Below the pieces are notes generated by a model that saw nothing but the letters and a program-made list of their open reading frames with translations, did not search any database and was not told the DNA's origin. Shown here one piece after another: positions 48,388 to 64,000 of a stretch of 64,000 nucleotides of DNA. Numbering within the stretch: position 1 is the first letter of the stretch; each line of letters begins with the position of its first letter. Source of the DNA: Kaistia granuli DSM 23481. Its GTDB lineage: Bacteria; Pseudomonadota; Alphaproteobacteria; Rhizobiales; Kaistiaceae. Location of the stretch: NCBI RefSeq assembly GCF_000380505.1, contig NZ_AQYH01000007.1:62001-126000 (forward strand), given 5' to 3'. The translations under genes were made by a program, and so were the position numbers.

Positions 48388-48477
48388 GGAGAGGTGGCAG
48401 AGTGGTCGATTGCACCGCACTCGAAATGCGGCATACTCGCAAGGGTATCGGGAGTTCGAATCTCCCCCTCTCCGCCA
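48388..48477 (+). tRNA. tRNA-Ser (anticodon CGA)
   Basis: Acceptor stem GGAGAGG (48388-48394) pairs with CCTCTCC (48467-48473), discriminator G, then encoded CCA. The anticodon stem CCGCA/TGCGG encloses CTCGAAA with anticodon CGA. A long variable arm (class II, typical of Ser) and the TTCGAAT T-loop are present. The 3' end is directly followed by AT-rich DNA and the island genes, marking a probable integration site. Confidence 0.93.
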
Positions 48478-49614: not shown

Positions 49615-50733
49615 ATGACTGTTGAAAACGACATCCTGCGCTTTCACTACCGTCGCTACATGGAGCACGCCAAAGGCTATTCCCCGAAAACGATCGACAG
49701 CCATCTGCGGGCCATCGTCAGTTTCGATCAGTTCCAGCGTGGTCGCGACTTCGGAACGATCACCACGGATCAGATCATCTCCTTTCGGAAACACCTTCTT
49801 GAAAAGTCGTCCGAGGTGACGGGAAGGGTGCTTTCCGCGTCCACCATCGTCCACACCCTGGGTGCGCTGAAGGACTTCTTTCACTGGTTGGCCGAAACGG
49901 GGTTCCCGAAGTTTGACCGGAGCGCGATCGACTACTTCACGCCACCGAAGCGCACCGAGCTTAACGCTCGCACTCGGCCGCGCCGTCCTATCGCCACCCC
50001 TCAGGATGTCGCCAGGATGATTGAGGCAACGCCGCGCGACACTCTGGAAGGACTCCGCGATGCCGCCGTGATCTCGATTGTCTTCCTGACCGGGATTCGG
50101 GTTGGTGCGCTCATCTCTCTCAAGATCAAGCATGTTCGTCCCGACGCACGCCAGATCGATCAGGATTCCGACGAGGTCCAGACCAAGTTCGGCAAGAACC
50201 AGGTGACGACGTGGTTCTCGGTCGGCGAGCCGTACGAGACCATCCTTCTCGAGTGGCTGGAGGTTCGCAAAGCGGCCGGCGCGACGGACGAGGATCCGCT
50301 CTTTCCTAGGAAGCACTCGGCGTTCGGGAGCCATTCCGAGGAACAGGATACGGAGCTGCCCTGGGTCTCGTCACGGCCGATCAACGAGATCTTCAAGAAG
50401 GCCTGTCGCGAAGCCGGGCTTCCCTACTTCAATCCGCACTCCATCCGGAACACACTGACCCGCATGGCGCGCACCGTGTGTCGGACGGATGAGGAGAAGA
50501 AGGCCTGGAGCCAGAACCTCGGCCACAAGCACATGCGGACGACCGACGAAAGCTATGGCCACGTCGACACCGATCGCCAGCATGAATTGCTGGTGGCACT
50601 GCGCTCGCGGAGTGGCAAGCGTCAGAAGGACGAGGCGCTGGTGGAGGCCATTCTGGCCGCTTCCGACGCCGTGAAAGACGCGATCGATGTCATCCTGCGC
50701 ACGCAGATGCCGTTCCTCGGTACTGCTTCCTAA
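49615..50733 (+). CDS. island tyrosine recombinase (integrase)
   Basis: 372 residues. N-terminal arm-type SAM-like domain (ENDILRFHYRRYMEHAKGYSPKTIDSHL), then the catalytic part: Arg in FLTGIRVGALISL, Lys candidate region, HxxR in NPHSIRNTLTRMA and the GHKHMRTTDESYGHV motif with the final Tyr. It differs from XerC. It is placed next to tRNA-Ser and two HTH genes, typical of a self-inserting island. The gene ends with a strong hairpin at 50784-50819. No strong ribosome site is visible before the ATG. Confidence 0.88.
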   Translation: MTVENDILRFHYRRYMEHAKGYSPKTIDSHLRAIVSFDQFQRGRDFGTITTDQIISFRKHLLEKSSEVTGRVLSASTIVHTLGALKDFFHWLAETGFPKFDRSAIDYFTPPKRTELNARTRPRRPIATPQDVARMIEATPRDTLEGLRDAAVISIVFLTGIRVGALISLKIKHVRPDARQIDQDSDEVQTKFGKNQVTTWFSVGEPYETILLEWLEVRKAAGATDEDPLFPRKHSAFGSHSEEQDTELPWVSSRPINEIFKKACREAGLPYFNPHSIRNTLTRMARTVCRTDEEKKAWSQNLGHKHMRTTDESYGHVDTDRQHELLVALRSRSGKRQKDEALVEAILAASDAVKDAIDVILRTQMPFLGTAS

Positions 50734-51633: not shown

Positions 51634-54600
51634 TCAAGTATCAAAAAACCGCCTGCAGAAGTAATAGGCGAGACGATCTTTAAAGTTTATAATGTTGTCT
51701 TCAACGGTCATGATCTCACAGTGAGCGGTGCCGCCGTTCGTCGGTCCTCTGAGGCCCCGGCCAACCATCTGCATGTAGAGTACGGGGCTGAAGACAGGTC
51801 TTGAGATTAGGACCATGTCGGCCTTGGGAGCATCAAAGCCAGTCGTCAGCACACTGTGATTGCAGATTACCCGTAGATCGCCGGCACGGAACCGTCTTGT
51901 GAAATGCTGCCTCGCAAGTCGGTCCGTCTGTCCGCTGACCGCGGCGGCAGGACAACCCGCAAGATGCAGCCTCGCTGCAAGGTACTGCGCGTGGGCGACG
52001 GAGTTGGCGAAGAGGAGGATGGACTCTGCCCTGCTGTTTGCGATGGCTCCAATGATCAGATCGTTCCGGTCGGTGTCTTCGCCCATTCGATCCACGACGC
52101 TGTCAGGCAGCTCCCCAAACGTGTCGACGTGCTGTTGTTCGCGTTCTGTCAGGGTGATCGGCCTGTCGTAGCGAAGGGGGCGATAGCTTCGGTCCGCGAG
52201 CACGCCCATCTCGGAGAGCTTGTCGTGAAGGCCGGCTTGGTCGGCGGGGAACCAGCGACGGTCAAAGCGCGCCGCAAGCCGCTCGGACTCGTCCTCATTG
52301 TACCCGCGCCATGGCGTTGCGCTGAGGCCGAGAACGGGCGCTTCACGCTCCCGCGCACGCTCGCTGCCGACCTGAACATCGAGCCATCGCAACAGGTCGG
52401 TGTAGCTCGAGGTTATCGCGTGATGGCACTCATCGATGACGATGATCCCCGTTTGAGCGACCCACGCGAGTTCCGGACGACCGCTTCTGCTGCTCAAGGT
52501 TTGGATGCTTGCGATCACTACGGTTGGCTCGTCACCCTCCGGCGGTGACGGGTTTCGCTGCCCCCCCCACAGCCGCACGATACGAAGATCTTCGCCGGGC
52601 TCTCCCACATTGACCCAGAGCTGGCGAAAGCACTGGACCGCCTGCTCGCACAGTTCATCGGTCTGGGCTATCCAGAGTGCGGTACGGCGTCCATCTCCCT
52701 TCAAGACGAGCCGCACGACAGCCTCAGCAGCGACACGCGTTTTGCCGCCGCCTGTAGGCAGGCTGACCACAGCCCGGCGGCGGCCAGTGCCTGTGTCGAG
52801 AAGCGAGCCTATGCTCGTCAGGATATCTTCCTGGTAATCGTGAAGCGGTGGCAGGTGGATCGGCCCGCTTACAGAGATTTCTGCATCTCTGCGGCCGCCG
52901 ACCGAAGAAGCAAACTCGATCGGGAAGCCAAGCTGTTGCACAAACAGGCGCGATTGCTCTCCACCCCATCGATTGGGAGGCGCAAGTCCTTGAAGCTCGA
53001 GTGCGTTCCTGAGCCTGCTGAGGAGCGTCGGTCCGTGAACCGCCAGTGCCAGTCTGGCAAGGCTCTCCGGATCGACATCGTTCCCAACTGCTTGACGGGT
53101 AGCAGGAGTGAGGGTCCCGAGGAGGTTCTCGAGATCACCACCGATCGCCTTCAGCAACCTGAGCTCAAGCGATTTCTCTTCTCGAACTGCCTTGCGTGCC
53201 TCGTCTGACCGCCGATCCATGATCCGGGAAAGGATTTCTTCCAGATCTGCCCCGTCCTGAATGATCCCGTGGCGCGCAAGACAACGAAGTAGCAGTTCGA
53301 TGCTCTCCTTTCGGCCACGAATGCCGAACTGCTCACTATCAATGAGAAATGCGCCGTCTGCGTCCATCCCGACCGTCACTGCTCGACTGAAGGGTCCGAC
53401 GCTTTCTTCAAGGCCGCTGACCCAGACGGCCAGTACTGTTCTGAGGACATCAGCGCCTTCCGGTACTGCCGCCAACTCCGGGAAAAGGTCGAGAAGGTAG
53501 GACGGCGCTGACAGACGCTTCGCGAATGACATCGAGGGCCCAGTGCCAAGCTCGATTGCGCCGGCTGCTACCCACGCCGAAGCAACATCCTCGGACAACA
53601 AAACAATCCTGCCATCATCGAGATCGTGCCCTACGCTCGGATCGGACGTCACATAGATGTCCGACAATGGGAGCGCGCCGTCGGCGCTGGGCAAGTTTGC
53701 GGGAATGGCTCCTTCAGCATGCGCCATCTCCCAAACTGGCCGAAGTGCCTTGAAGCCGCTTTTTCGCTCCGCGAGTGATTTGAATACCTCTTCCCAGAAA
53801 CGCGCGGCGGCTTCTCGCGTGAGTTTGGCCCTGCTCCACGCAAAGCGTGATCCTAAGTCCGTCTCAGCGTCTCTCGCTCGGAGAAAACCGTCTACAGCTT
53901 TGAAACCGGGGGCTTCAACTCCATCCAAGATTTCAGCAAGTTCGGGGGGGATGCACTTCAACGGCACTACGAGGTTGCCGACACGTATCCGTCCATGCTC
54001 CGTCAGCCAGAAATAAGCCGGATGCGGTGCTGTCACCTTTGGGTATGAGTCCGGACGTGTCGGGTGGACGATTGTTACCTTGAACGCACCTTCGGCAGCT
54101 TGCGGGATTGCACTCAAGAGCATCTGGCTCAAATGTGCAGAACTTGCCGAAGGCAGCACGGGGAGAAGCCGCCAGCCGGGTGGCATTCGGATCGAATAGC
54201 TGGAAGTCTTGGGCAAGTATCGCGGCGTGCTGCCAGAGTGCTTCCTGCAGACTTCGTCGAAGGCAGGGCTCAACAACCGGAAGTAGTCCGTGAGATTCGG
54301 ATCGCCTCGATCCACGGACTCCTCGGCACTAGGGAATTCCGTCAGCCATTCATTTGGAGCCGAGGCTTCGATCTCCTGCCGGAACTGCGGATCCATGACA
54401 TGGTCATCGGGAAAACCCGCGGGGTTCACCCATACAACCAGTAGGTTCCTGCTTGTCCACTTTCCCGAAACCGCGCGAAATTTGAGCCGCTCCACATCAA
54501 GGTCATCGATGTAGTCTTGCCTCGCCTCCTGCTGTGCAGAGGCGATGTTGTGCCAGAAGTTCTCCCAGTCTTCCGCCCGATCGGATTCCTCCGCTGTCGT

Positions 54601-56340
54601 TAGGGATGTTTCCAGGATGTCGGACCACGCCGCTGCCGCCAGTTCGGTGACGTGCAACTGATTTATCAGGATGTCTCGGCTCTGCTTGTCCGAAGCAATT
54701 TCTTCAGCGACTGCTAGGAAGCCTGCGGGCGGAGCCGACCCGGATACGATCACTGCCTCGGAAGGGGTGGCCAAGTGCCCGTCCGCAGTTGGGATCAGGC
54801 GTGCCTCAGGAACGCTGAACAACCCGTGTTTGTAGTTTTCCTGCAGGAGGCGACCAACGAACGCCAAGGCATTTCTCGCCAGAGCGAGATCGGTATTCGC
54901 GATGCAGTTTAGCCATTCATCGGCGGGCGGCTTCGCGAGGACCTGCATGTCCCGGCGCCGCGCTTCCTCGATGAGCGCCTTCAAACGCGAGCCCCTTGCC
55001 TCGGAGGAGTAGCAGTCCGGATGCAGATAGCGTTCTCTCGCATCCGCGCCTGCTAGGTCGGCCCACGATCTGCAGATTTCCGTGTTCTCAACAAAATGCC
55101 GAACAAGCTTGCTTGGTTTGCGCGGGATACCGTTCACGTCAGGCAACACCTCAGACGAAACGATTTTGTCCCAAAGAGACCGAACAAGGGGTACGGCGAT
55201 TTCGTCCTGTCGTTCCGGTTGACGCGGGAACGCACTTACTGCGGCCCCGCAGTCCTCGGCTGTCGACAGCGCAGTGAGAGAGCCGCTAATCAGATCAGCC
55301 GCTGCCAGCATTATCGCTTCGTTCCATGGTCCCCTGATCAGGTTGGTCCTGTCACTGTTGAGCTTCCAAGGAGCATTGAGAATGCCCGAAGTGCGGCTCT
55401 GCGTTTCGGTCGGGAAGAACGCCCAGAAGCGACCAGCCTGTTCACGACCACCGACCGGCACGGCCCAAGACAGTGGCACCTGCTCCCTCGCCTGGATGTG
55501 AGTTGCGTCGGAGCGCGCGGCCTGGCTTTCGACCTTTGCCGAAGCCTCGAAGACCTTCCATCGGGCCTCGTTGGTTCCGTCACCCACAACGGCAAATCCG
55601 TCTTCAAACCGCTTGGTCAAGAGACGGGGTGCAGCCCCTTCAACTTCAAGCTCGAGGGAGATAGCCGAGGGCAAGAACAACAGGAACTCTGCCGGAAAAT
55701 CGGCAATTTCCTGGCTCAGTCGATCGAATGCGGCGTCATCCGATATCTCCGCCGAGACGACCGTGGTCGCCCAGCTCCACCTGCTTGTACTGAAGAGTGG
55801 ACTGCTTTCGGCAGCAGGGTCCAGTACCTCAGCAAGTCGCATGCCAGGGGCGGGTGCGTTCTTGGCAAGACCAAGATGTCCACGAATGCGATCACGGCAC
55901 GCTTCGGGGTCGAAGCGCAGTCCTACTGATCTGGATGTCAGGTCAACGCGACCGCCCAGTTTAAGCAGCGACTTGAACCCGATCCCAAATCGCCCAATTT
56001 GATTGCCGCGCTTGGGGGAGCTGCGCGCATTAAGGAGCGCTACGATTCCCGGTTCATCCAAGGCGGCGCCGGTGTTAGCTGCCTCCAACCGATTGGGGGA
56101 AAGGCGGACATGGATCCGGCCTTCGGGCTCCGCGGCCTCAAGGATCGCGTCGGCAGCGTTCTGCACCAGTTCGAACAACTGACGATAGGCGTATCCACCC
56201 GACAGGACCTCGTTCTCGGTCTCGAAATGCTCGGCCGCGTCCCGGGGTTGTGCCTCGTAGGCCTTAAGGCGCTTCTGGCATTCGTCGTGAACGAACTCTG
56301 CTAGCTGCTTTAGATCGGAGTCTTGGCTGCGAATATCCAT
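51634..56340 (-). CDS. sacsin/GHKL-type ATPase fused to SF2 helicase, candidate defence protein
   Basis: 1568 residues from the ATG at 56340, chosen because GAGG lies 5 bp upstream; the frame is open to 56388. Residues 55-125 are a GHKL (Hsp90/sacsin) ATPase: FELVQNAADAILEA (Asn61), ANTGAALDEPG, GNQIGRFGIGFKS. The middle (about 250-1150) is unrecognised. Residues about 1190-1568 are an SF2 helicase: SLPTGGGKTRVAAEA near 1198, DECHH near 1303, LSATPWRG near 1347, and QMVGRGLRG near 1527. Such fusions occur in anti-phage islands; the function here is inference. It stands alone on its strand, opposite the MerR/VIT-VWA unit. Confidence 0.8.
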   Translation of the reverse strand: MDIRSQDSDLKQLAEFVHDECQKRLKAYEAQPRDAAEHFETENEVLSGGYAYRQLFELVQNAADAILEAAEPEGRIHVRLSPNRLEAANTGAALDEPGIVALLNARSSPKRGNQIGRFGIGFKSLLKLGGRVDLTSRSVGLRFDPEACRDRIRGHLGLAKNAPAPGMRLAEVLDPAAESSPLFSTSRWSWATTVVSAEISDDAAFDRLSQEIADFPAEFLLFLPSAISLELEVEGAAPRLLTKRFEDGFAVVGDGTNEARWKVFEASAKVESQAARSDATHIQAREQVPLSWAVPVGGREQAGRFWAFFPTETQSRTSGILNAPWKLNSDRTNLIRGPWNEAIMLAAADLISGSLTALSTAEDCGAAVSAFPRQPERQDEIAVPLVRSLWDKIVSSEVLPDVNGIPRKPSKLVRHFVENTEICRSWADLAGADARERYLHPDCYSSEARGSRLKALIEEARRRDMQVLAKPPADEWLNCIANTDLALARNALAFVGRLLQENYKHGLFSVPEARLIPTADGHLATPSEAVIVSGSAPPAGFLAVAEEIASDKQSRDILINQLHVTELAAAAWSDILETSLTTAEESDRAEDWENFWHNIASAQQEARQDYIDDLDVERLKFRAVSGKWTSRNLLVVWVNPAGFPDDHVMDPQFRQEIEASAPNEWLTEFPSAEESVDRGDPNLTDYFRLLSPAFDEVCRKHSGSTPRYLPKTSSYSIRMPPGWRLLPVLPSASSAHLSQMLLSAIPQAAEGAFKVTIVHPTRPDSYPKVTAPHPAYFWLTEHGRIRVGNLVVPLKCIPPELAEILDGVEAPGFKAVDGFLRARDAETDLGSRFAWSRAKLTREAAARFWEEVFKSLAERKSGFKALRPVWEMAHAEGAIPANLPSADGALPLSDIYVTSDPSVGHDLDDGRIVLLSEDVASAWVAAGAIELGTGPSMSFAKRLSAPSYLLDLFPELAAVPEGADVLRTVLAVWVSGLEESVGPFSRAVTVGMDADGAFLIDSEQFGIRGRKESIELLLRCLARHGIIQDGADLEEILSRIMDRRSDEARKAVREEKSLELRLLKAIGGDLENLLGTLTPATRQAVGNDVDPESLARLALAVHGPTLLSRLRNALELQGLAPPNRWGGEQSRLFVQQLGFPIEFASSVGGRRDAEISVSGPIHLPPLHDYQEDILTSIGSLLDTGTGRRRAVVSLPTGGGKTRVAAEAVVRLVLKGDGRRTALWIAQTDELCEQAVQCFRQLWVNVGEPGEDLRIVRLWGGQRNPSPPEGDEPTVVIASIQTLSSRSGRPELAWVAQTGIIVIDECHHAITSSYTDLLRWLDVQVGSERAREREAPVLGLSATPWRGYNEDESERLAARFDRRWFPADQAGLHDKLSEMGVLADRSYRPLRYDRPITLTEREQQHVDTFGELPDSVVDRMGEDTDRNDLIIGAIANSRAESILLFANSVAHAQYLAARLHLAGCPAAAVSGQTDRLARQHFTRRFRAGDLRVICNHSVLTTGFDAPKADMVLISRPVFSPVLYMQMVGRGLRGPTNGGTAHCEIMTVEDNIINFKDRLAYYFCRRFFDT

Positions 56341-56763
56341 GCACGCCTCAAAATCCCTAAGGGAAACATCTGCGTAGGCTGTTCCCACCCGCCCTCACCA
56401 CGTTTGCGAGACTAGCCGCGAGAGATGGAGGGCGACAACAACTTACGAGAGCATCGGTGTCGCTTTTGGTCTGCCCCCTGAAAGTTCTCTCATCGCATTG
56501 GTCAAGCTGGTTGATCGGGCTTTGCGCACACGCCGGGTTCATGGTTCTCTCCGCGGTCGGTCTCGGTGGATCGCCGCGTGTTGGCGTCAGATTGTCGGAT
56601 CAACCGAAGCGATCCTCGTGGTTGCCGAAAGCACCGCATTTCCAGGGACGGCTTGATCCGCGCCAAGCGACGCGATCCACCAGAAGCCAGGATTAAACAC
56701 CTCGCCACTTAGGTTCGTACCGAGGTGTTGTTCCGTGAAACAGCGTCGGCTGCGGGGGCAAGG
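56341..56763. other. intergenic region between divergent defence genes
   Basis: About 420 bp separate the ATPase-helicase start and the first MerR operator. Frames cross it but none starts well or shows homology. It should contain the promoter of the minus-strand gene. A short stretch near 56472-56490 resembles the end of the IS3-type element at 59934, but the match is weak. Confidence 0.35.
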
Positions 56764-56850: not shown

Positions 56851-57219
56851 GTGAACATGACGGAACTCCTGACCGAGGCGGACGACGAGCGCGTGACCGC
56901 GCGTTTCGTCCGTTTCCTTGTTGCCGAGGGTGTCATCCCGCCGCCGCGCGGCGGTCGCGCCAATGCTGACTATGGCGCGGATCACCTCAACGGAATCCGA
57001 CGTTACCTGTCGTTGCGTGGTCTCGGCCTGTCCGCCGCAAGGGTGAAGGAGATTGTCGCGGGCGCCGCCGATATCGGCATACCCGTGCTGATCGCGCCCG
57101 GGATCACCCTGATCCTCGACCCGAAGAAGCTCGAGCGGCCGCTGAAGCCGGAACAGATCGCTGAAGCGCTCAAACGAACTCTTAACCTGATCGCCCCGGA
57201 GGATGACACCGATGCCTAG
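56851..57219 (+). CDS. MerR-type regulator of a VIT/VWA unit
   Basis: 122 residues from a GTG at 56851 with AAAAGG 8 bp upstream; an ATG at 56857 is a little far from that site. The HTH region YGADHLNGIRRYLSLRGLGLSAARVKEIVAG matches the winged helix of MerR proteins. No metal-binding Cys is seen and the C-terminal part is short, so it resembles small HspR-like members. It lies between two inverted repeats and the VIT/VWA gene and likely binds them. It overlaps the next gene by 8 bp, so both are one transcript. Confidence 0.75.
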   Translation: MNMTELLTEADDERVTARFVRFLVAEGVIPPPRGGRANADYGADHLNGIRRYLSLRGLGLSAARVKEIVAGAADIGIPVLIAPGITLILDPKKLERPLKPEQIAEALKRTLNLIAPEDDTDA

Positions 57220-59224
57220 CTCTCTCGAGTCCGGCCAGCTTGCCACGCGATATTTTGGGGGGGATGCTCCGGAAGGCTCCAGGATCCCTCTTGTCGGTGA
57301 GCGGATGCGGATTCTCATCCGTGGCGGACTGGCGCTTGTCACCCGCGAGCAGCGCTTCCAAAATGGTGAGGAGACCTCCATCGAGGCGAGCATCACCTTC
57401 CCCGTGCCGGTCCATGCAACGCTTTGTCGGCTGTCGGCTCAGGTCGGCGAGCGCGTGCTGATCGCCCAGGCCCAGCTGCGCCAGCAGGCGCGAGAGACCT
57501 ATGAGCACGCGGTCGATGAGGGGAAAGCCGCGATCCTGCACGAGGAGTTGGTACGAGGCGTCCATATGCTATCGATCACCCATATCCCTCCGGGTGAAGA
57601 GATCACGGTCAGCCATAGTTGGATTCTGCCCCTCGCGTCGCAAGGAGCGGGCAAGGCGCTCCTGCGTATCCCGGTCACTCTGGGCGACGTCTATGGCCGC
57701 TCGCCGTTCAGCGACGCTGACGACCTCGTGACGTCGCCCCATGTCGTCCATGAAGCGGAGATCGAAGTCGATGCTGGCGGCGCGCATGCAGAGGTGCGAG
57801 GCTTGGCCAAAGGCACGACCAGGCTGCGGCTCGACGCGCCGGTCGATATCCATCTCTCCGGCGACATCTGGGGCTTCAGCAATGGCCGCGCGGCTGATGG
57901 GCGAGCCGTCGCGATGTCAGTGGTGCCCCATGCCGTCGATGCCGTTGAAATCACCGCCGCTGTTCTGGTCGACCGATCCGGCTCGATGGCGAGCGGTGCC
58001 TCCCTGCGAGGCCGAGGCGGCGCGGCGACGAAACATGAGGCGGTCAAAGCTGGCCTCGCCGGCGCGGCGCAGGCGCTGAAGCCTCGCGATCAGGTTGAGC
58101 TTTGGCAGTTCGACAACGCCTGTGAGCGTGTATCCGGGCCCGACATTCCGTTGGGCATGGCTGTCGGGAAGCTCGGAGAACCACAGGGGGGAACCGATAT
58201 CGGCGGGGCGCTCGCCCGTGTTGTCGGCGGTTCCGAGGCCGGGGAAATCATTCTCGTCACCGACGGGCTGAGCCATGCCCTCGACGTTCAGGCTCTCGCC
58301 AACAGCGGACGGCGGTTCACGGTGGTCCTGGTCGGTGACGATGCGCTTGAGGCCAATGTCGGGCGGCTCGCTGCGCTCACTGGCGGGGAGATATTCCTCG
58401 TGACCGGAGCAAACGATCCTGCTGCGGCGGTGCAAGCGGCCATCGCCTCGGTCAGGCGGCCGGCAACGACGTTCGCAACGGGCACCTGGCCGTTCGAGAC
58501 GGTCTCAACCTTTGTTGGCGGCGCGCTGGTAAGCGCTGAATGGTCTGGCGAGAAGGTTGCGGTTGAACCGTCCGGATTCGATCAGGCCGTCGGCGCCATG
58601 GCCGCAGCGATCGCATTGCCCAGACTTTCTGAAGAGCAAGCGGCGACGGTCGCGACCGGTCACGGCATTGTCTGCCATCTGACCAGCCTGGTCCTGGTCG
58701 ACGAAGCTGGTGCGGTTCAGGAGGGATTGCCCGCTCAGCGCAAGATCCCGCTGATGGTCGTAGACGCACTCCGCGAGGCGCCCAGCTATCTGGCCTTTGA
58801 AGCGCCCAGCCATTTGGCTCCTGTCCAAGCTCAAATGCGGCACCCGACGCTATTCGCGAGGCTTGCGTCCAATCGCCCGGCAGACTCGGAATCCGTCTCC
58901 TTGCTTCGTCGTGTCGCTCCGGCGGCGAGGTCCCCCGCTGCCATGGCGGCCCGAATCGATTGGGCTCTCGATCCTGACACCTTGCGCCGGGGCGAGTTGA
59001 GCCGATTGCCGGCCGGCATTGCCGATCGCGTGCGGGAGGCGGCAAAGGTTCCTGAAGTGTTGGCGCTGAGCGGGCCCGGGCGCGAAGCGACAGCTATTGT
59101 CCTGGCGCTCATGGCACGGTCGCTCGGCATGTGGAAGCGGTCCGCGGCGCGGGTTGCTCGGTCGGTGCTCAAGGGCCTTGATCGAGAGGCCGTGGAGCGC
59201 GCTGCGACTGCATTGGGGCTTTAG
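57212..59224 (+). CDS. VIT and VWA domain protein
   Basis: 670 residues from the ATG at 57212; the ATG at 57203 directly abuts GGAGG and cannot be used. The N-terminal VIT region (about 10-140) has ALVTREQRFQNGEETSIEASITFPVP and ARETYEHAVDEG. The VWA domain (about 245-405) has the MIDAS residues DRSGSMASG, a Thr-containing GGTDIGGALARVVGG and VTDGLS. No signal peptide, membrane helix or enzyme motif is seen, so it may be an intracellular scaffold. VIT-VWA proteins of this kind occur in conflict systems, but no partner ATPase is next to it. Function unknown. Confidence 0.8.
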   Translation: MPSSLESGQLATRYFGGDAPEGSRIPLVGERMRILIRGGLALVTREQRFQNGEETSIEASITFPVPVHATLCRLSAQVGERVLIAQAQLRQQARETYEHAVDEGKAAILHEELVRGVHMLSITHIPPGEEITVSHSWILPLASQGAGKALLRIPVTLGDVYGRSPFSDADDLVTSPHVVHEAEIEVDAGGAHAEVRGLAKGTTRLRLDAPVDIHLSGDIWGFSNGRAADGRAVAMSVVPHAVDAVEITAAVLVDRSGSMASGASLRGRGGAATKHEAVKAGLAGAAQALKPRDQVELWQFDNACERVSGPDIPLGMAVGKLGEPQGGTDIGGALARVVGGSEAGEIILVTDGLSHALDVQALANSGRRFTVVLVGDDALEANVGRLAALTGGEIFLVTGANDPAAAVQAAIASVRRPATTFATGTWPFETVSTFVGGALVSAEWSGEKVAVEPSGFDQAVGAMAAAIALPRLSEEQAATVATGHGIVCHLTSLVLVDEAGAVQEGLPAQRKIPLMVVDALREAPSYLAFEAPSHLAPVQAQMRHPTLFARLASNRPADSESVSLLRRVAPAARSPAAMAARIDWALDPDTLRRGELSRLPAGIADRVREAAKVPEVLALSGPGREATAIVLALMARSLGMWKRSAARVARSVLKGLDREAVERAATALGL

Positions 59225-59267: not shown

Positions 59268-59933
59268 GCCGGTTCGGCGTCGGGGCATGGATGCCCCGGT
59301 TCCCATGGTCGCGCCGACATGGTGCAGCCTTGTCCTGCGGTGTGGTGCAGACCGGCTTGCCGCGGACGACGCCGTGAAGGACGAGGTCGGTCATCAGCCG
59401 CTCGTCCGTGCAGCGCGAGACGGTCAGACCTCGCGTGCCCATACATCTCCGGCGAAGACACGCTCGATCTCGGGCTTCAGCGTCAAGTCCCGCTTCGCCC
59501 GCGCCGAAAGCTTCTCTGGATCGACGCGCTTGACGACATGGTCGCGGTAGGTCGACGGGGCGATCAGCAGCACATTGCAGATCGGCTCGACACATGCGCC
59601 TCGCGGTGATCGTCGCGAAACGCGATCATCGTTTGAATGGTCGGTCGAGCTCCGCATGGGCAAAATAAGCGGAAGCCTTGCGCAGGATCTGGTTGGCCTG
59701 ACGAAGCTCCCGGTTCTCCCGCTCCAGCGCCTTCAGCTTCGCTGCCATGTCCGTCGGCACGCCGGCCCGCTTGCCGCATCGACCTAGGCCCTCCTCACCC
59801 ACTCGTTCAGGTCTGCCCGTGCAGCCGAGCTTGGACGAGATCGACATGAATATCGACCAGCGCGAGTGATGTTCATGCTCGTGATCCGGCACCAGCCGCA
59901 TGGCTCGTTGGCGCACTTCCGGGGAGAATGACC
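59268..59933 (-). mobile_element. degenerate IS3-family element (minus strand)
   Basis: Remnants of orfA (about 59626-59933: SPEVRQRAMRLV near the start, then KLKALERENRELRQANQILR and ASAYFAHAELDRPFKR) and orfB (about 59268-59632: NVLLIAPSTYRDHVVKRVDP, KAAPC, GIHAPTPNR) lie in several shifted frames. Multiple frameshifts make it non-functional. It stops abruptly at the end of the next IS copy (59934), which may have cut its 5' side. Confidence 0.75.
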
Positions 59934-61173: not shown

Positions 61174-62793
61174 TCATGCCTCTGCCTGACGGAGCCAGCT
61201 GAGCATCTCCGGTTCACCGGCGACGACGAGGTGAACACGCGGTCTCGACAGGGCGACGTAAGCCAGTTCGTTGATGTCTGATAGGTCGCGCGTTGCAGCC
61301 AAGATAACCACAGGCTTCTCCAGCCCCTTGAAGTCGCGCACTTTTTCGATGCTGATGTCGTCGAACGCAGCGAGCTTTTTCGCTAGGGTGTCGATCATCA
61401 CATCGGACGCACAGAGAACGACAATGTTCTCTGGATTCACCTCATCGTCACCCGTTAGCCTGCGCACGACCTCCAGCACCTTCAGATCGACGTTGCGCGC
61501 CGTTGTTTCGATCCACTCGACTGTCGTGCCGGCAGGGCCGTCCGCAAGCAGCTCCGTGCCCTCGTAGAATTTCGAGGCCGCGTCGTGGATGGTGCGTGTA
61601 TTCCGCAGATTGCGGGTGAGGCGTATCGGTGCGATCTGGAAGGAAGCCAGCTCGCCTGAAACATCACCATAGACACTCTGGTTTGTGTCGAAAAACACAT
61701 GCAGGCAGGACTTCTCCCGGCTGTTTAACAGGTCCTCAAAGGCGACCCAGCAGGTGGACCTGATGTCCTGACCTTCGTCGACCACGATTGCATCGTAGCG
61801 CAGGTCCGGCCGTTTCTCGGCCGATCTGCAGATCAGCGTCGCGATCTGGTCGGGGTCAAGGGGACCGGTGGGGATCAATATGCCGGCTTCGCTCGCAAGT
61901 GAGCGGCACAGGCGATCAAGATCCCAGACATAGACGCCAGTATTCAGCAGGCGCTGTGTCAGATGTTGTGCAAGCGGCGGACTAAGGCACACAAGTGCCG
62001 TACGATGACCCGCAGCAGCTTTTCGAGCAGCATCTTCGATCGCAAGAATGGTTTTGCCGGTTCCTGCGCCACCGCCCGCTGCCATGCGCGGTGCGTCCTG
62101 AACGGCTGTGAGGATATGATATTGCTGCGGCGTGAGCTCTGCGATTGCTTGGTCATCATCGTCCAAGTAGTGCCCCATCGGAACACTGAGCTCGAAAGGC
62201 CTCGCGAGAACATCTCTGAACGCCTGAACACCGGCTTCTCCCATGGGCTGCTCGTCACCCGTCGACAGTCGGTGCCTAACCCAGTCAGAAATAGTCTTTA
62301 GCTCCGGCCGGCAGCAGAACATCTCGCGCGGCATATCCGGTCCAAGGGCTTCCGCAGGCGGAAGGGAGTCCGTGAACACGACACCATGTCGCGCGCGGAT
62401 GAAGCGGTTTGGCCACGAGGGTGAATTTTTCACGGCCTTAAGCAGTTCGTGCTGTGCAGAGACCGCCTGTCTTACCGGGTTCTTGATATTGTGCTTGATG
62501 CCGTAGCGGTCCGTACTGGTCCACTGGTCGGCTGCTGGGTCGAATGCGATCGCGCCCCCCTTGACCTCGATTGTGAGATACCCGCGGACGGCATGCACTA
62601 CGACAAAGTCAGCCTCGCCATCTTTTTCAACACCGGCAGGGGTAAGCCCCAGCCACGGACGGCTATAAAACACAGTCCATTCGGGCCCGAGCTGCTCTGC
62701 GAGCAGGTCGTAGACCTTTACTTCCGCTTCACGCAGCGGATTATCCCGCACCTGCCGTGGAAGAATGGCAGGCCACATCTGTGCACCGCTCAT
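61174..62793 (-). CDS. NERD nuclease-SF1 helicase fusion protein
   Basis: 539 residues. The N-terminal NERD nuclease domain (about 17-130) has GEADFVVV and YLTIEVKGG, giving D62, E76 and K78. The helicase part starts with Walker A AAGGGAGTGKTILAIEDAA (about 238-256), then Walker B IVVDEGQDI (about 336-344), a middle RLTRNLRNTRTIHDAA motif and the end AYVALSRPRVHLVVAG (UvrD-type motif VI). It acts on DNA in the cytosol. Its start overlaps the DUF1998 gene stop by 4 bp (ATGA). In DISARM loci this place holds drmC (a PLD nuclease), so it may take over that role; this is inference. Confidence 0.85.
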   Translation of the reverse strand: MSGAQMWPAILPRQVRDNPLREAEVKVYDLLAEQLGPEWTVFYSRPWLGLTPAGVEKDGEADFVVVHAVRGYLTIEVKGGAIAFDPAADQWTSTDRYGIKHNIKNPVRQAVSAQHELLKAVKNSPSWPNRFIRARHGVVFTDSLPPAEALGPDMPREMFCCRPELKTISDWVRHRLSTGDEQPMGEAGVQAFRDVLARPFELSVPMGHYLDDDDQAIAELTPQQYHILTAVQDAPRMAAGGGAGTGKTILAIEDAARKAAAGHRTALVCLSPPLAQHLTQRLLNTGVYVWDLDRLCRSLASEAGILIPTGPLDPDQIATLICRSAEKRPDLRYDAIVVDEGQDIRSTCWVAFEDLLNSREKSCLHVFFDTNQSVYGDVSGELASFQIAPIRLTRNLRNTRTIHDAASKFYEGTELLADGPAGTTVEWIETTARNVDLKVLEVVRRLTGDDEVNPENIVVLCASDVMIDTLAKKLAAFDDISIEKVRDFKGLEKPVVILAATRDLSDINELAYVALSRPRVHLVVAGEPEMLSWLRQAEA

Positions 62794-64000
62794 GATGCTC
62801 CTTCCGTAAGAGAGTGGAAGAAGCCTGTCTCGTGATCATCCGGTGTGCCCACCAGCATCGCGCGGTCAAGGAAGCGATTGAATTCTTCGCAGGACGTCTC
62901 GGGTGAGAGAACACATGAGTGGCAGGCTGCGAGGGAGAGCCCGTCATCGGGCGCCATCATGTCTTCGATGCAGAGCGGATCGGATGAGCACCATGCCTGC
63001 GCATGGATGGCGGCCTGAACTGTCCGGCTGATGAGTTTCGGGTCACCCTGGCGCTGCAGACCACCAAGCGTTCCGTCGTCATCCGTCGTTGCCGTGTAGA
63101 TCAGCACGCCCGCCATCGGGACTGATGGATCGCTCTCGACATAAACTCTTTCCCTCAGCGCCGTGGAAGAGTAGCCGCAGTCGAGGGTGAGCTGCCGCAT
63201 GAGCGCATGCGCGAAGGTGTGCACCAGCAGAAAACGCGGCGTGATCTCACGCGGTGGTGCCGACTTGGCGCCGTGACGCTCTTTCCACTCTGCCTCCCAC
63301 CGGTCATTGATCCTTGCTGCACGGCCTGATGGTCCGCTCAGCTTTTCCCATTTAGCGAGCGCAGCCTGATCAAACTCTAGGAAGACGCCCTCACCACGAA
63401 CCTCGATGGCGGGCAGCCACTCGAGAGGCGTGGCAGACAGCTGCGCCACGTTCGTCTGGCCATCGCCAGGCGGTTGAATGCGTGTAAATCCGGTCATGGC
63501 GCGCACTTCGCGCAGGCGCGTGACCTTTACGAGACGTGAGAACCACGGCTTCAGCGCATCCGGTATCTTCTGTGGACGTATTTCAAATTCGCGGTCGAGG
63601 CCCTGCACGTAGGTGCCGCCGGTGAACTGGCGATACTCCTCGATACGCAGATTGTCGGTGTTGATCACTGTCTCGGCGGAGACGCGTTTCTGCACTTCAT
63701 CGGCCACCTGTTTCGGTGTCATGTCGAGCTCTTTCATGACGCCTGCAAGAGGGCCGCCCGCCATGACGTCGATGAACTGAACACGCTGCGTGGGATCCGG
63801 CACGTTAATGATGGCATCCCAGTACATGCCGAGCGCTTCCTGCAGGCGGTCCGACCATGGCGGAATGCTGAGTGCGGACTCAACGACCGGGAAATACAGG
63901 TTGGAGGCACCGCGCTGCAATGCGCGCGGCTTACAGGTACAGGTTTCGTCTGCATCCGTGAGCCATGGCCGGTGACCGCGGCAGTTTGAAAAGCGGTCCC
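62790..64000 (-). CDS. drmB: DUF1998 (DrmB-like) protein, partial at the right edge
   Basis: The minus-strand frame is open to the window edge; about 402 C-terminal residues are visible and the N-terminus is missing. Upstream codons include cysteines (NCRGH, ETCTCKPRALQ), then QRGASNLYFPVVESALSIPPW, a hallmark of DrmB. The DUF1998 core is LLVHTFAHALMRQLTLDCGYSSTALRERVY, followed by GVLIYTATTDDDGTLGGL and ACHSCVLSPETSCEEFNRFLDRAML with zinc-type cysteines. DrmB is part of the DISARM anti-phage system with DrmA. The drmA gene, if present, would lie beyond the edge. The gene symbol is by similarity only. Confidence 0.75.
   Translation of the reverse strand, partial: DRFSNCRGHRPWLTDADETCTCKPRALQRGASNLYFPVVESALSIPPWSDRLQEALGMYWDAIINVPDPTQRVQFIDVMAGGPLAGVMKELDMTPKQVADEVQKRVSAETVINTDNLRIEEYRQFTGGTYVQGLDREFEIRPQKIPDALKPWFSRLVKVTRLREVRAMTGFTRIQPPGDGQTNVAQLSATPLEWLPAIEVRGEGVFLEFDQAALAKWEKLSGPSGRAARINDRWEAEWKERHGAKSAPPREITPRFLLVHTFAHALMRQLTLDCGYSSTALRERVYVESDPSVPMAGVLIYTATTDDDGTLGGLQRQGDPKLISRTVQAAIHAQAWCSSDPLCIEDMMAPDDGLSLAACHSCVLSPETSCEEFNRFLDRAMLVGTPDDHETGFFHSLTEGAS

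Follow-up and report, generated by a model that had tools for sequence, protein, structure and literature searches.

A sacsin-type GHKL ATPase fused to a RadD-like SF2 helicase, often encoded beside DISARM core genes, in a probable integrative island of Kaistia granuli

Tiamat is defined as a single gene with anti-phage activity. The accessible text of a 2026 review places it among the systems of unknown mechanism (PMC12926258), and VcSduA was reported to lose its anti-phage activity in a variant designed to impair the GHKL ATPase (PMC12137116). In DISARM, DrmAB has been described as auto-inhibited, as activated by DNA with a 5' overhang and as having a lower ATPase rate with 5mC DNA (from the accessible part of PMC9142583). 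ARMADA has been delimited by a YprA helicase encoded together with BrxHII-like and PglX-like proteins, and the same source mentions many uncharacterised DISARM-like classes (PMC12458937). GHKL proteins, SF2 helicases and methyltransferases have also been grouped into restriction neighbourhoods, and DNA looping was suggested for these; the MORC/paraMORC GHKL and SF2 neighbourhoods among them also encode C5 methyltransferases along with Vsr, EcoRII-like and HNH proteins (PMC2292703, accessible part).

We analysed a stretch of 64,000 nucleotides from K. granuli DSM 23481 (the window), which encodes on its minus strand a protein with a sacsin-type GHKL ATPase at one end and a RadD-like SF2 helicase at the other (Table 1). 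The longest form of the ORF (51634-56388) begins with GTG and yields 1584 aa; the ATG at 56340, common to four close relatives (L037, L071, L081 and L094), yields the 1568-residue protein that an earlier note on this DNA had described. A chance ORF was rejected, as 65 full-length members could be aligned. The GHKL motif set consists of the E and N of the N-box, a glycine-rich lid motif and a downstream arginine, and the fusion carries all of these, together with motifs I, II, III and VI of RadD-like SF2 helicases. The NCBIfam model of the sacsin ATP-binding domain (NF047352) matched residues 53-132 above its cut-off (E=1.3e-16), and the Pfam models matched this end weakly, below cut-off (HATPase_c, E=0.03; SACS, E=0.2). 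At the C-terminus, Pfam ResIII (6.9e-20) and Helicase_C (5.6e-13) were found; the nearest NCBIfam family was RadD (1.5e-29; 102.7 bits against an equivalog cut-off of 720), and the nearest solved structure by sequence was 6jde (3.4e-15). We know of no RadD with a GHKL part. All 65 full-length members share E57, N61, D64, G91, G116, G119, G121 and R331 on the ATPase side and K1200, T1201, D1303, E1304, H1306, R1528 and R1531 on the helicase side, so that both the intact ATPase with Asn61 and the intact helicase announced by the earlier note were confirmed. Its DECHH motif was also read correctly, though C1305 varies across the family (A in 40 members, C in 22 and S in three). By analogy with the available part of PMC9880540, we infer that R331 is the putative catalytic arginine of the GHKL ATPase.

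Table 1. Coordinates of the fusion gene, its parts and features of the surrounding island (window numbering; aa, amino acids)
Feature	Coordinates	Strand	Remarks
tRNA-Ser(CGA)	48388..48477	+	
Recombinase gene inside the island	49615..50733	+	ORF; presumably a tyrosine recombinase
Sacsin/GHKL ATPase, middle and RadD-like SF2 helicase fusion gene	51634..56340	-	1568 aa
Helical accessory region and SF2 helicase core, residues 1043-1568	51637..53214	-	
SF2 helicase core, residues ~1166-1550	51691-52845	-	C-terminus of the fusion shortly past motif VI
Middle region, residues 361-1042	53215..55260	-	shares homology with a segment of the free-standing 1096-aa sacsin-type protein
GHKL (Bergerat) ATPase and Hsp90/MutL-like transducer, residues 1-360	55261..56340	-	boundary hand-set from the AlphaFold2 model
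NERD nuclease-UvrD helicase protein	61174..62793	-	539 aa; 4-bp overlap with DrmB
DrmB (DUF1998/MZB)	62790..64754	-	654 aa; one open frame; window edge at 64000
DrmA	64609-67722	-	own genome, outside the window
UvrD	67731-69758	-	own genome, outside the window

Some 900 residues between the two catalytic ends had been taken as unrecognised, which did not hold. With hhalign, positions 17-1042 of a family profile of residues 1-1165 aligned to a free-standing 1096-residue protein from an Arthrobacter plasmid (E=2e-111, 965 columns), and positions 14-636 aligned co-linearly to TmtA of the relative locus L038 (E=1.5e-28). Because of these alignments, the fusion is best described as a sacsin-type protein (approximately residues 1-1042) followed by a helical lead-in and a RadD-like helicase. 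On the Arthrobacter plasmid p2MP (L034:6761-16965), genes for a C5 methyltransferase, a 1096-aa sacsin-type protein, an MzaB-like protein, an MzaD-like protein and Z1 lie consecutively. Structure prediction of the middle had been proposed in the earlier note; residues 1-1165 were modelled with AlphaFold2 (57 sequences; mean pLDDT 88.1); since the pTM was 0.56, the domain arrangement within this model is unsure. For residues 1000-1568 (43 sequences), the mean pLDDT was 87.8 and the pTM 0.83. Foldseek searches with the 1-1165 model returned Hsp90 and PMS2 at low TM-scores by query length (at most 0.21 among the PDB matches listed), and these matches of a predicted model support the ATPase fold only; the 1000-1568 model returned RadD and XPB, with the RadD SF2 core at 25% identity. 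A classical nuclease in the middle was rejected, since no nuclease signature was seen among the positions from 341 to 1072 with at least 95% conservation (W426, H440, R449, W476, V544, L558, W596, P774, G783 and P954); a nuclease of a novel type may nevertheless be present. The idea of tandem repeats in the middle is weak as well: comparison of residues 360-480 with 480-600 by hhalign gave a probability of 41%, and the other 18 window pairs gave less than 5%.

A genome scan yielded 161 related stretches, the best 80 of which, together with a copy from IMG/VR (L037), make up the 81 loci considered here; they include two free-standing helicases (L133 and L134) and several contig-edge fragments. 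Counting blastp matches that run from residue 30 or earlier to residue 1540 or later as full length, 64 loci qualified, or 65 members with the Kaistia fusion. They are distributed over eight phyla (Pseudomonadota, Actinomycetota, Acidobacteriota, Chloroflexota, Verrucomicrobiota, Gemmatimonadota, Myxococcota and Armatimonadota), although single-phylum records may be contaminants because many loci are metagenome-assembled genomes (MAGs). The Kaistia genome has one full copy, and among 385 genomes of the same class it alone gave a full-length match; G367, of this class, carries a copy apparently interrupted by an insertion sequence, the N-terminal part of which is off the contig. In a set of 397 genomes from the order, the only matches to residues 1-1165 besides the own genome were two sacsin-type proteins, of which PADLOC classes one as TmtA, and no match to these residues was found in ten genomes of the same genus. 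The plasmid and phage collections contained no full-length copy, as none of the 133 plasmid and none of the 918 phage records with a match covers 80% of the query; the sole IMG/VR copy adjoins type I restriction genes. A tree built from 71 helicase sequences (65 from fusions, plus six hand-picked free-standing helicases) placed the fusions on one side of a branch with support of 90/58, present in 90% of 200 bootstrap trees. This tree is consistent with one fusion event, without proving it. Some copies are split or broken (L005, L087, L092, L097 and L098), where MAG sequencing errors are possible.

The earlier note had also proposed a survey of the neighbourhoods of homologues. Seed proteins were searched by tblastn in the 81 loci (the gene plus flanks of up to 9 kb a side) and in 17 control stretches, which at 12 kb are shorter than the locus flanks, from elsewhere in genomes of the same set; the control genomes were hand-picked, not random. 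DrmB was detected in 37 loci, DrmA and UvrD in 36 each, C5 methyltransferase in 28, Vsr in 26, RecD-like PDC-S68 in six, NERD in five, BREX PglZ in three and HsdR/HsdM in two, as against none of the 17 controls in every case. UvrD and DrmB are both present in 35 of the 36 DrmA loci, and C5 methyltransferase and Vsr are present in 26 and 24 of these; the exception to the full set is L134, from a Chloroflexota MAG, whose helicase is free-standing. The survey thus placed the fusion with UvrD, DrmA and DrmB in 35 of 81 loci. As these are 30 actinobacterial and five alphaproteobacterial loci, far fewer independent events than 35 are represented.

Gene calling recovered the order fusion, UvrD, DrmA, DrmB on one strand for 23 of these 35 loci, of which four are alphaproteobacterial and 19 actinobacterial, and in the remaining 12 UvrD or DrmB was missed by the gene caller; the gene order rests on a crude GC3-based caller, which left the fusion gene itself uncalled in three of the 81 loci (L091, L102 and L137), and the tblastn counts are independent of it. 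UvrD is the next called gene in 26 loci, and its longest ORF overlaps the end of the fusion in 22 of these, by 4 bp in six loci and by 13-164 bp in the other 16. The fusion likewise shares a 4-bp stop/start overlap with a RecD-like gene in two loci and with the next gene in L083. Homologues of NERD-UvrD lie downstream of DrmA in five alphaproteobacterial loci. Among 101 neighbour genes of 15 loci, PADLOC matched DrmA 10 times, methyltransferase six, GajB-type UvrD six and DrmB three (best 25 of 108 models), and PF16565 (PLD-like) matched two of the 101 genes (best 25 of 70 families); in 127 control genes none of these four PADLOC types was matched, and 11 models had one match each. The PADLOC neighbour and control sets were drawn up without L148, L149 and their controls. 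Distances between fusions and between DrmA proteins in the 30 actinobacterial loci were correlated at r=0.985, a value not reached in any of 1000 permutations, which may reflect shared descent of whole genomes, as fusion and DrmA alone were compared.

No tested partner was detected by tblastn in 32 of the 81 loci, at least nine of which have less than 4 kb downstream. In 116 genes near 24 of these 32, PADLOC matched mad3 (five), PDC-S01 (three), CARF_m8 (two) and pAgo (two), with AriA, HEC-01A and others at one match each (best 25 of 35 models); such scattered matches lend weak support to a defence role there. The neighbours of several Acidobacteriota and Chloroflexota copies appeared ordinary by eye. 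Fusions 84-91% identical to that of Kaistia adjoin DrmAB (L071), type I restriction genes (L037) or a RecD-like gene (L081 and L094). The RecD-like helicase (1211-1286 aa) adjoins the fusion in six alphaproteobacterial loci (L081:13704-17564, L094:13704-17561, L077, L082, L086 and L089), with a 4-bp overlap in two and a divergent arrangement in three, and corresponds to PADLOC PDC-S68 (scanned for L081). In actinobacterial loci, proteins of the PADLOC candidate PDC-M33A were found near the fusion (L139:5713-7833 and L120:3971-5812). Free-standing helicases of the fusion's type are encoded in two Chloroflexota MAGs (L133:7980-10362 and L134:3043-5437) near C5 methyltransferase and DrmB, and in L134 also near DrmA; no sacsin part was found in the L134 locus. 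The protein preceding the helicase in L133 and L134 resembles a MutY/EndoIII-type glycosylase; PADLOC, scanned for L134, calls this gene a type II nicking enzyme. The Rhodobacteraceae SC52 plasmid (L035:5369-10288) carries an operon for an MzaB-like GHKL ATPase, a protein of 210 aa, an SF2 helicase that resembles that of the fusion (34% identity) and a protein of the PLD type; this GHKL protein and helicase are a two-gene counterpart of the fusion.

In K. granuli, the last 14 nt of the tRNA-Ser gene (48464-48477) recur exactly at window-equivalent positions 76090-76103 (L004:12091-12104), 153 bp beyond an integrase gene (74684-75937, window numbering) that we take to be of the P4 type. These repeats are the probable ends of a 27.6-kb integrative island holding the fusion, so that the integrated island with defence genes described in the earlier note is probable. 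The tRNA-Ser matches at 100% in nine same-genus loci (one cut by a contig end), and in these no island or right flank was found within about 0.6-1.5 kb beyond it; nor did these relatives show an empty site. The NERD-UvrD, DrmB, DrmA and UvrD genes of the island are tightly packed, all on the strand of the fusion, and begin 4.8 kb from it. A frame-shifted DrmB, as it appeared at the window edge, was rejected, since the gene is a single frame. Beyond UvrD lie HNH, EcoRII-C, Vsr and C5 methyltransferase genes; EcoRII-C, Vsr and the C5 methyltransferase, which has an N-terminal HTH (L004:6869-10177, window-equivalent 70868-74176), form an apparent EcoRII-type restriction system. The interval between the fusion and NERD-UvrD holds an opposite-strand gene for a protein with VIT and von Willebrand A domains (57203-59224, +) and IS3 remains. 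A small gene (56851-57219, +) precedes the VIT-VWA gene and presumably encodes a protein resembling a MerR-type regulator. An Rfam ALIL pseudoknot (59556-59671, -), an IS3-family frameshift element, has transposase-like remains nearby. The earlier description of the fusion as sitting alone holds only in part: no tested partner was found in 32 loci, but the fusion lies with UvrD, DrmA and DrmB in 35, and in the Kaistia island NERD-UvrD and DrmB lie 4.8 kb off, with DrmA and UvrD next.

Compared with L071, the nearest DrmAB-linked fusion, the Kaistia fusion is 84% identical, and the partners are less so (DrmA 55%, DrmB 53%, UvrD 42%, and NERD 45% with the L071 protein cut by the locus end). Because of this difference, the fusion and DrmAB in the island have separate recent histories, with partners exchanged; nothing else speaks as strongly against a fixed partnership within the Kaistia genome, and the finding fits an exchangeable module. 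DrmA is more conserved than the fusion in four alphaproteobacterial pairs (L075/L076, L075/L078, L076/L078 and L071/L080), whereas in six alphaproteobacterial pairs across two subgroups it is less conserved than the fusion by 5-9 points.

Because relatives in many phyla often share an operon with DISARM core genes, the fusion probably has a part in bacterial immunity that has not been described before. As to its role, we consider it about evenly balanced whether the fusion serves modification-based restriction of phages as an ATP-gated DNA helicase, most often in a DISARM-like system, a reading that rests on sequence comparison: two complete, invariant ATPase sites in one chain, no nuclease signature in the middle, and the UvrD-DrmA-DrmB operon in 35 of 81 loci. 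The sacsin/Hsp90-type ATPase would open and close as a clamp, as in MutL and Hsp90, on invading DNA or a DNA-protein complex; the clamp cycle would license the SF2 motor to load and move; and the motor, with DrmAB and UvrD, would unwind and dismantle DNA that lacks the host 5mC mark. Any cutting would be done by partners (NERD, EcoRII-C, PLD or type I enzymes), not by the fusion. In the Kaistia island, the fusion would be an exchangeable module, 4.8 kb from the DrmAB operon across IS remains and divergent genes; the distance and the different gene order make the link to DrmAB weak there, which counts against this explanation. A bolder version, to which we give somewhat less than even credence, is that a new multi-gene immune class is at hand, in which the clamp-motor fusion with UvrD, DrmA and DrmB would dismantle 5mC-less DNA without a dedicated nuclease, the same module serving as an interchangeable helper of BREX, type I or other systems.

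The 32 loci without a tested partner, and the presence of fusions 84-91% identical beside systems as different as DrmAB, type I restriction and a RecD-like helicase, also suit a self-sufficient single-gene immune protein like Tiamat, in which the ATPase and middle would sense a phage protein or structure, the helicase would be an effector swapped in for the C-terminal domain of TmtA, and the restriction genes would be island company. The co-linear homology to TmtA speaks for this, as does the L038 TmtA, which matches NOV_C weakly at its end (20.1 bits against a cut-off of 22.1) and gave no helicase match. However, where DrmAB is present, the overlaps with UvrD and a gene order common to both Alphaproteobacteria and Actinomycetota suggest that the proteins act together, and we regard self-sufficiency as rather unlikely. 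That the helicase is closest to RadD, together with the ordinary-looking neighbours of the Acidobacteriota and Chloroflexota copies and the scattered PADLOC matches near partnerless loci, would suit a RadD-related factor of DNA repair or genome maintenance that stands in islands by chance. Its patchy spread (full length in the own genome only of the 385 same-class genomes, with one further broken copy; residues 1-1165 in none of ten same-genus genomes) and neighbours such as DrmAB, BREX and type I genes, which are not repair operons, make this improbable. Homologues found only in housekeeping contexts would, according to the earlier note, have refuted its view; the homologues are not so confined, although 32 of 81 loci lack a tested partner. 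Least credible is a passenger or decaying gene without function in the Kaistia island, which we hold to be very improbable: the IS3 remains and divergent genes in front of the DrmAB operon and the split or broken copies elsewhere, for which MAG sequencing errors are possible, could be read in this way, but the Kaistia frame is open, all its motifs are intact and it is 84-91% identical to four others. The fusion links Tiamat-type sacsin ATPases, GHKL-plus-SF2 restriction operons and the DrmAB of DISARM in one chain and operon; as a single polypeptide bears both active sites, two mutants would suffice to ask whether helicase action in immunity is gated by a GHKL clamp, and repeated exchange of the fusion between systems would show that immune operons share a motor.

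Compared with the described systems, the island shares with DISARM a DrmA (PADLOC E=6.4e-208) and a DrmB encoded together, with DrmA present in 36 of the 81 loci, and the fusion is neither of these. Its C5 methyltransferase matches DrmMII, the C5 methyltransferase of class 2 DISARM, at 1.3e-133 and a type II model better (3.1e-155), and sits with EcoRII-C and Vsr. No PADLOC match to DrmC (a PLD nuclease), to the class genes DrmD and DrmE or to DrmMI was found among the nine island proteins scanned; in place of DrmC, DrmD and DrmE, the island has the fusion, UvrD and NERD-UvrD. These nine also gave no PADLOC or Pfam match to PLD, the small ORFs and recombinase at 48.6-51.8 kb lying outside the scan. 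The resemblance to Tiamat covers residues 14-636, from the sacsin-type GHKL ATPase into the middle region. The earlier note had held that a strong match to a named system would refute its view, and in part there is one: the N-terminal 500-600 residues match TmtA (PADLOC E=5.2e-56, residues 11-507 on 7-491 of a 1538-position model, the match ending at 507-608 in the best models). In contrast, the TmtA models have no match on the helicase, and a match of the whole protein to TmtA is absent. The MORC/paraMORC and Mza-type neighbourhoods, to which L034 and L035 are similar, likewise combine a GHKL ATPase with an SF2 helicase; they differ in that separate genes encode the two proteins and that the GHKL families are MutL-like rather than sacsin-like (accessible part of PMC2292703). 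ARMADA and Druantia have in common with the island a YprA-family helicase in a defence operon, with DUF1998 typically fused to the helicase, whereas the Kaistia island has a separate DrmB, as in DISARM (PMC12458937). The BrxHII-like and PglX-like genes of ARMADA had no match among the nine island proteins scanned, and neither sacsin nor GHKL is a term in the main text of PMC12458937; its uncharacterised DISARM-like classes may include the fusion-UvrD-DrmA-DrmB type. The view of the earlier note that this layout lies outside the named systems agrees with PADLOC v2, in which no named system has it, and with the literature as judged by titles and the starts of abstracts, with subscription papers mostly outside, where none of the papers listed describes the fusion. 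The fusion system differs from DISARM, Tiamat and ARMADA, and resembles a GHKL-plus-SF2 restriction module that often travels with the DISARM core.
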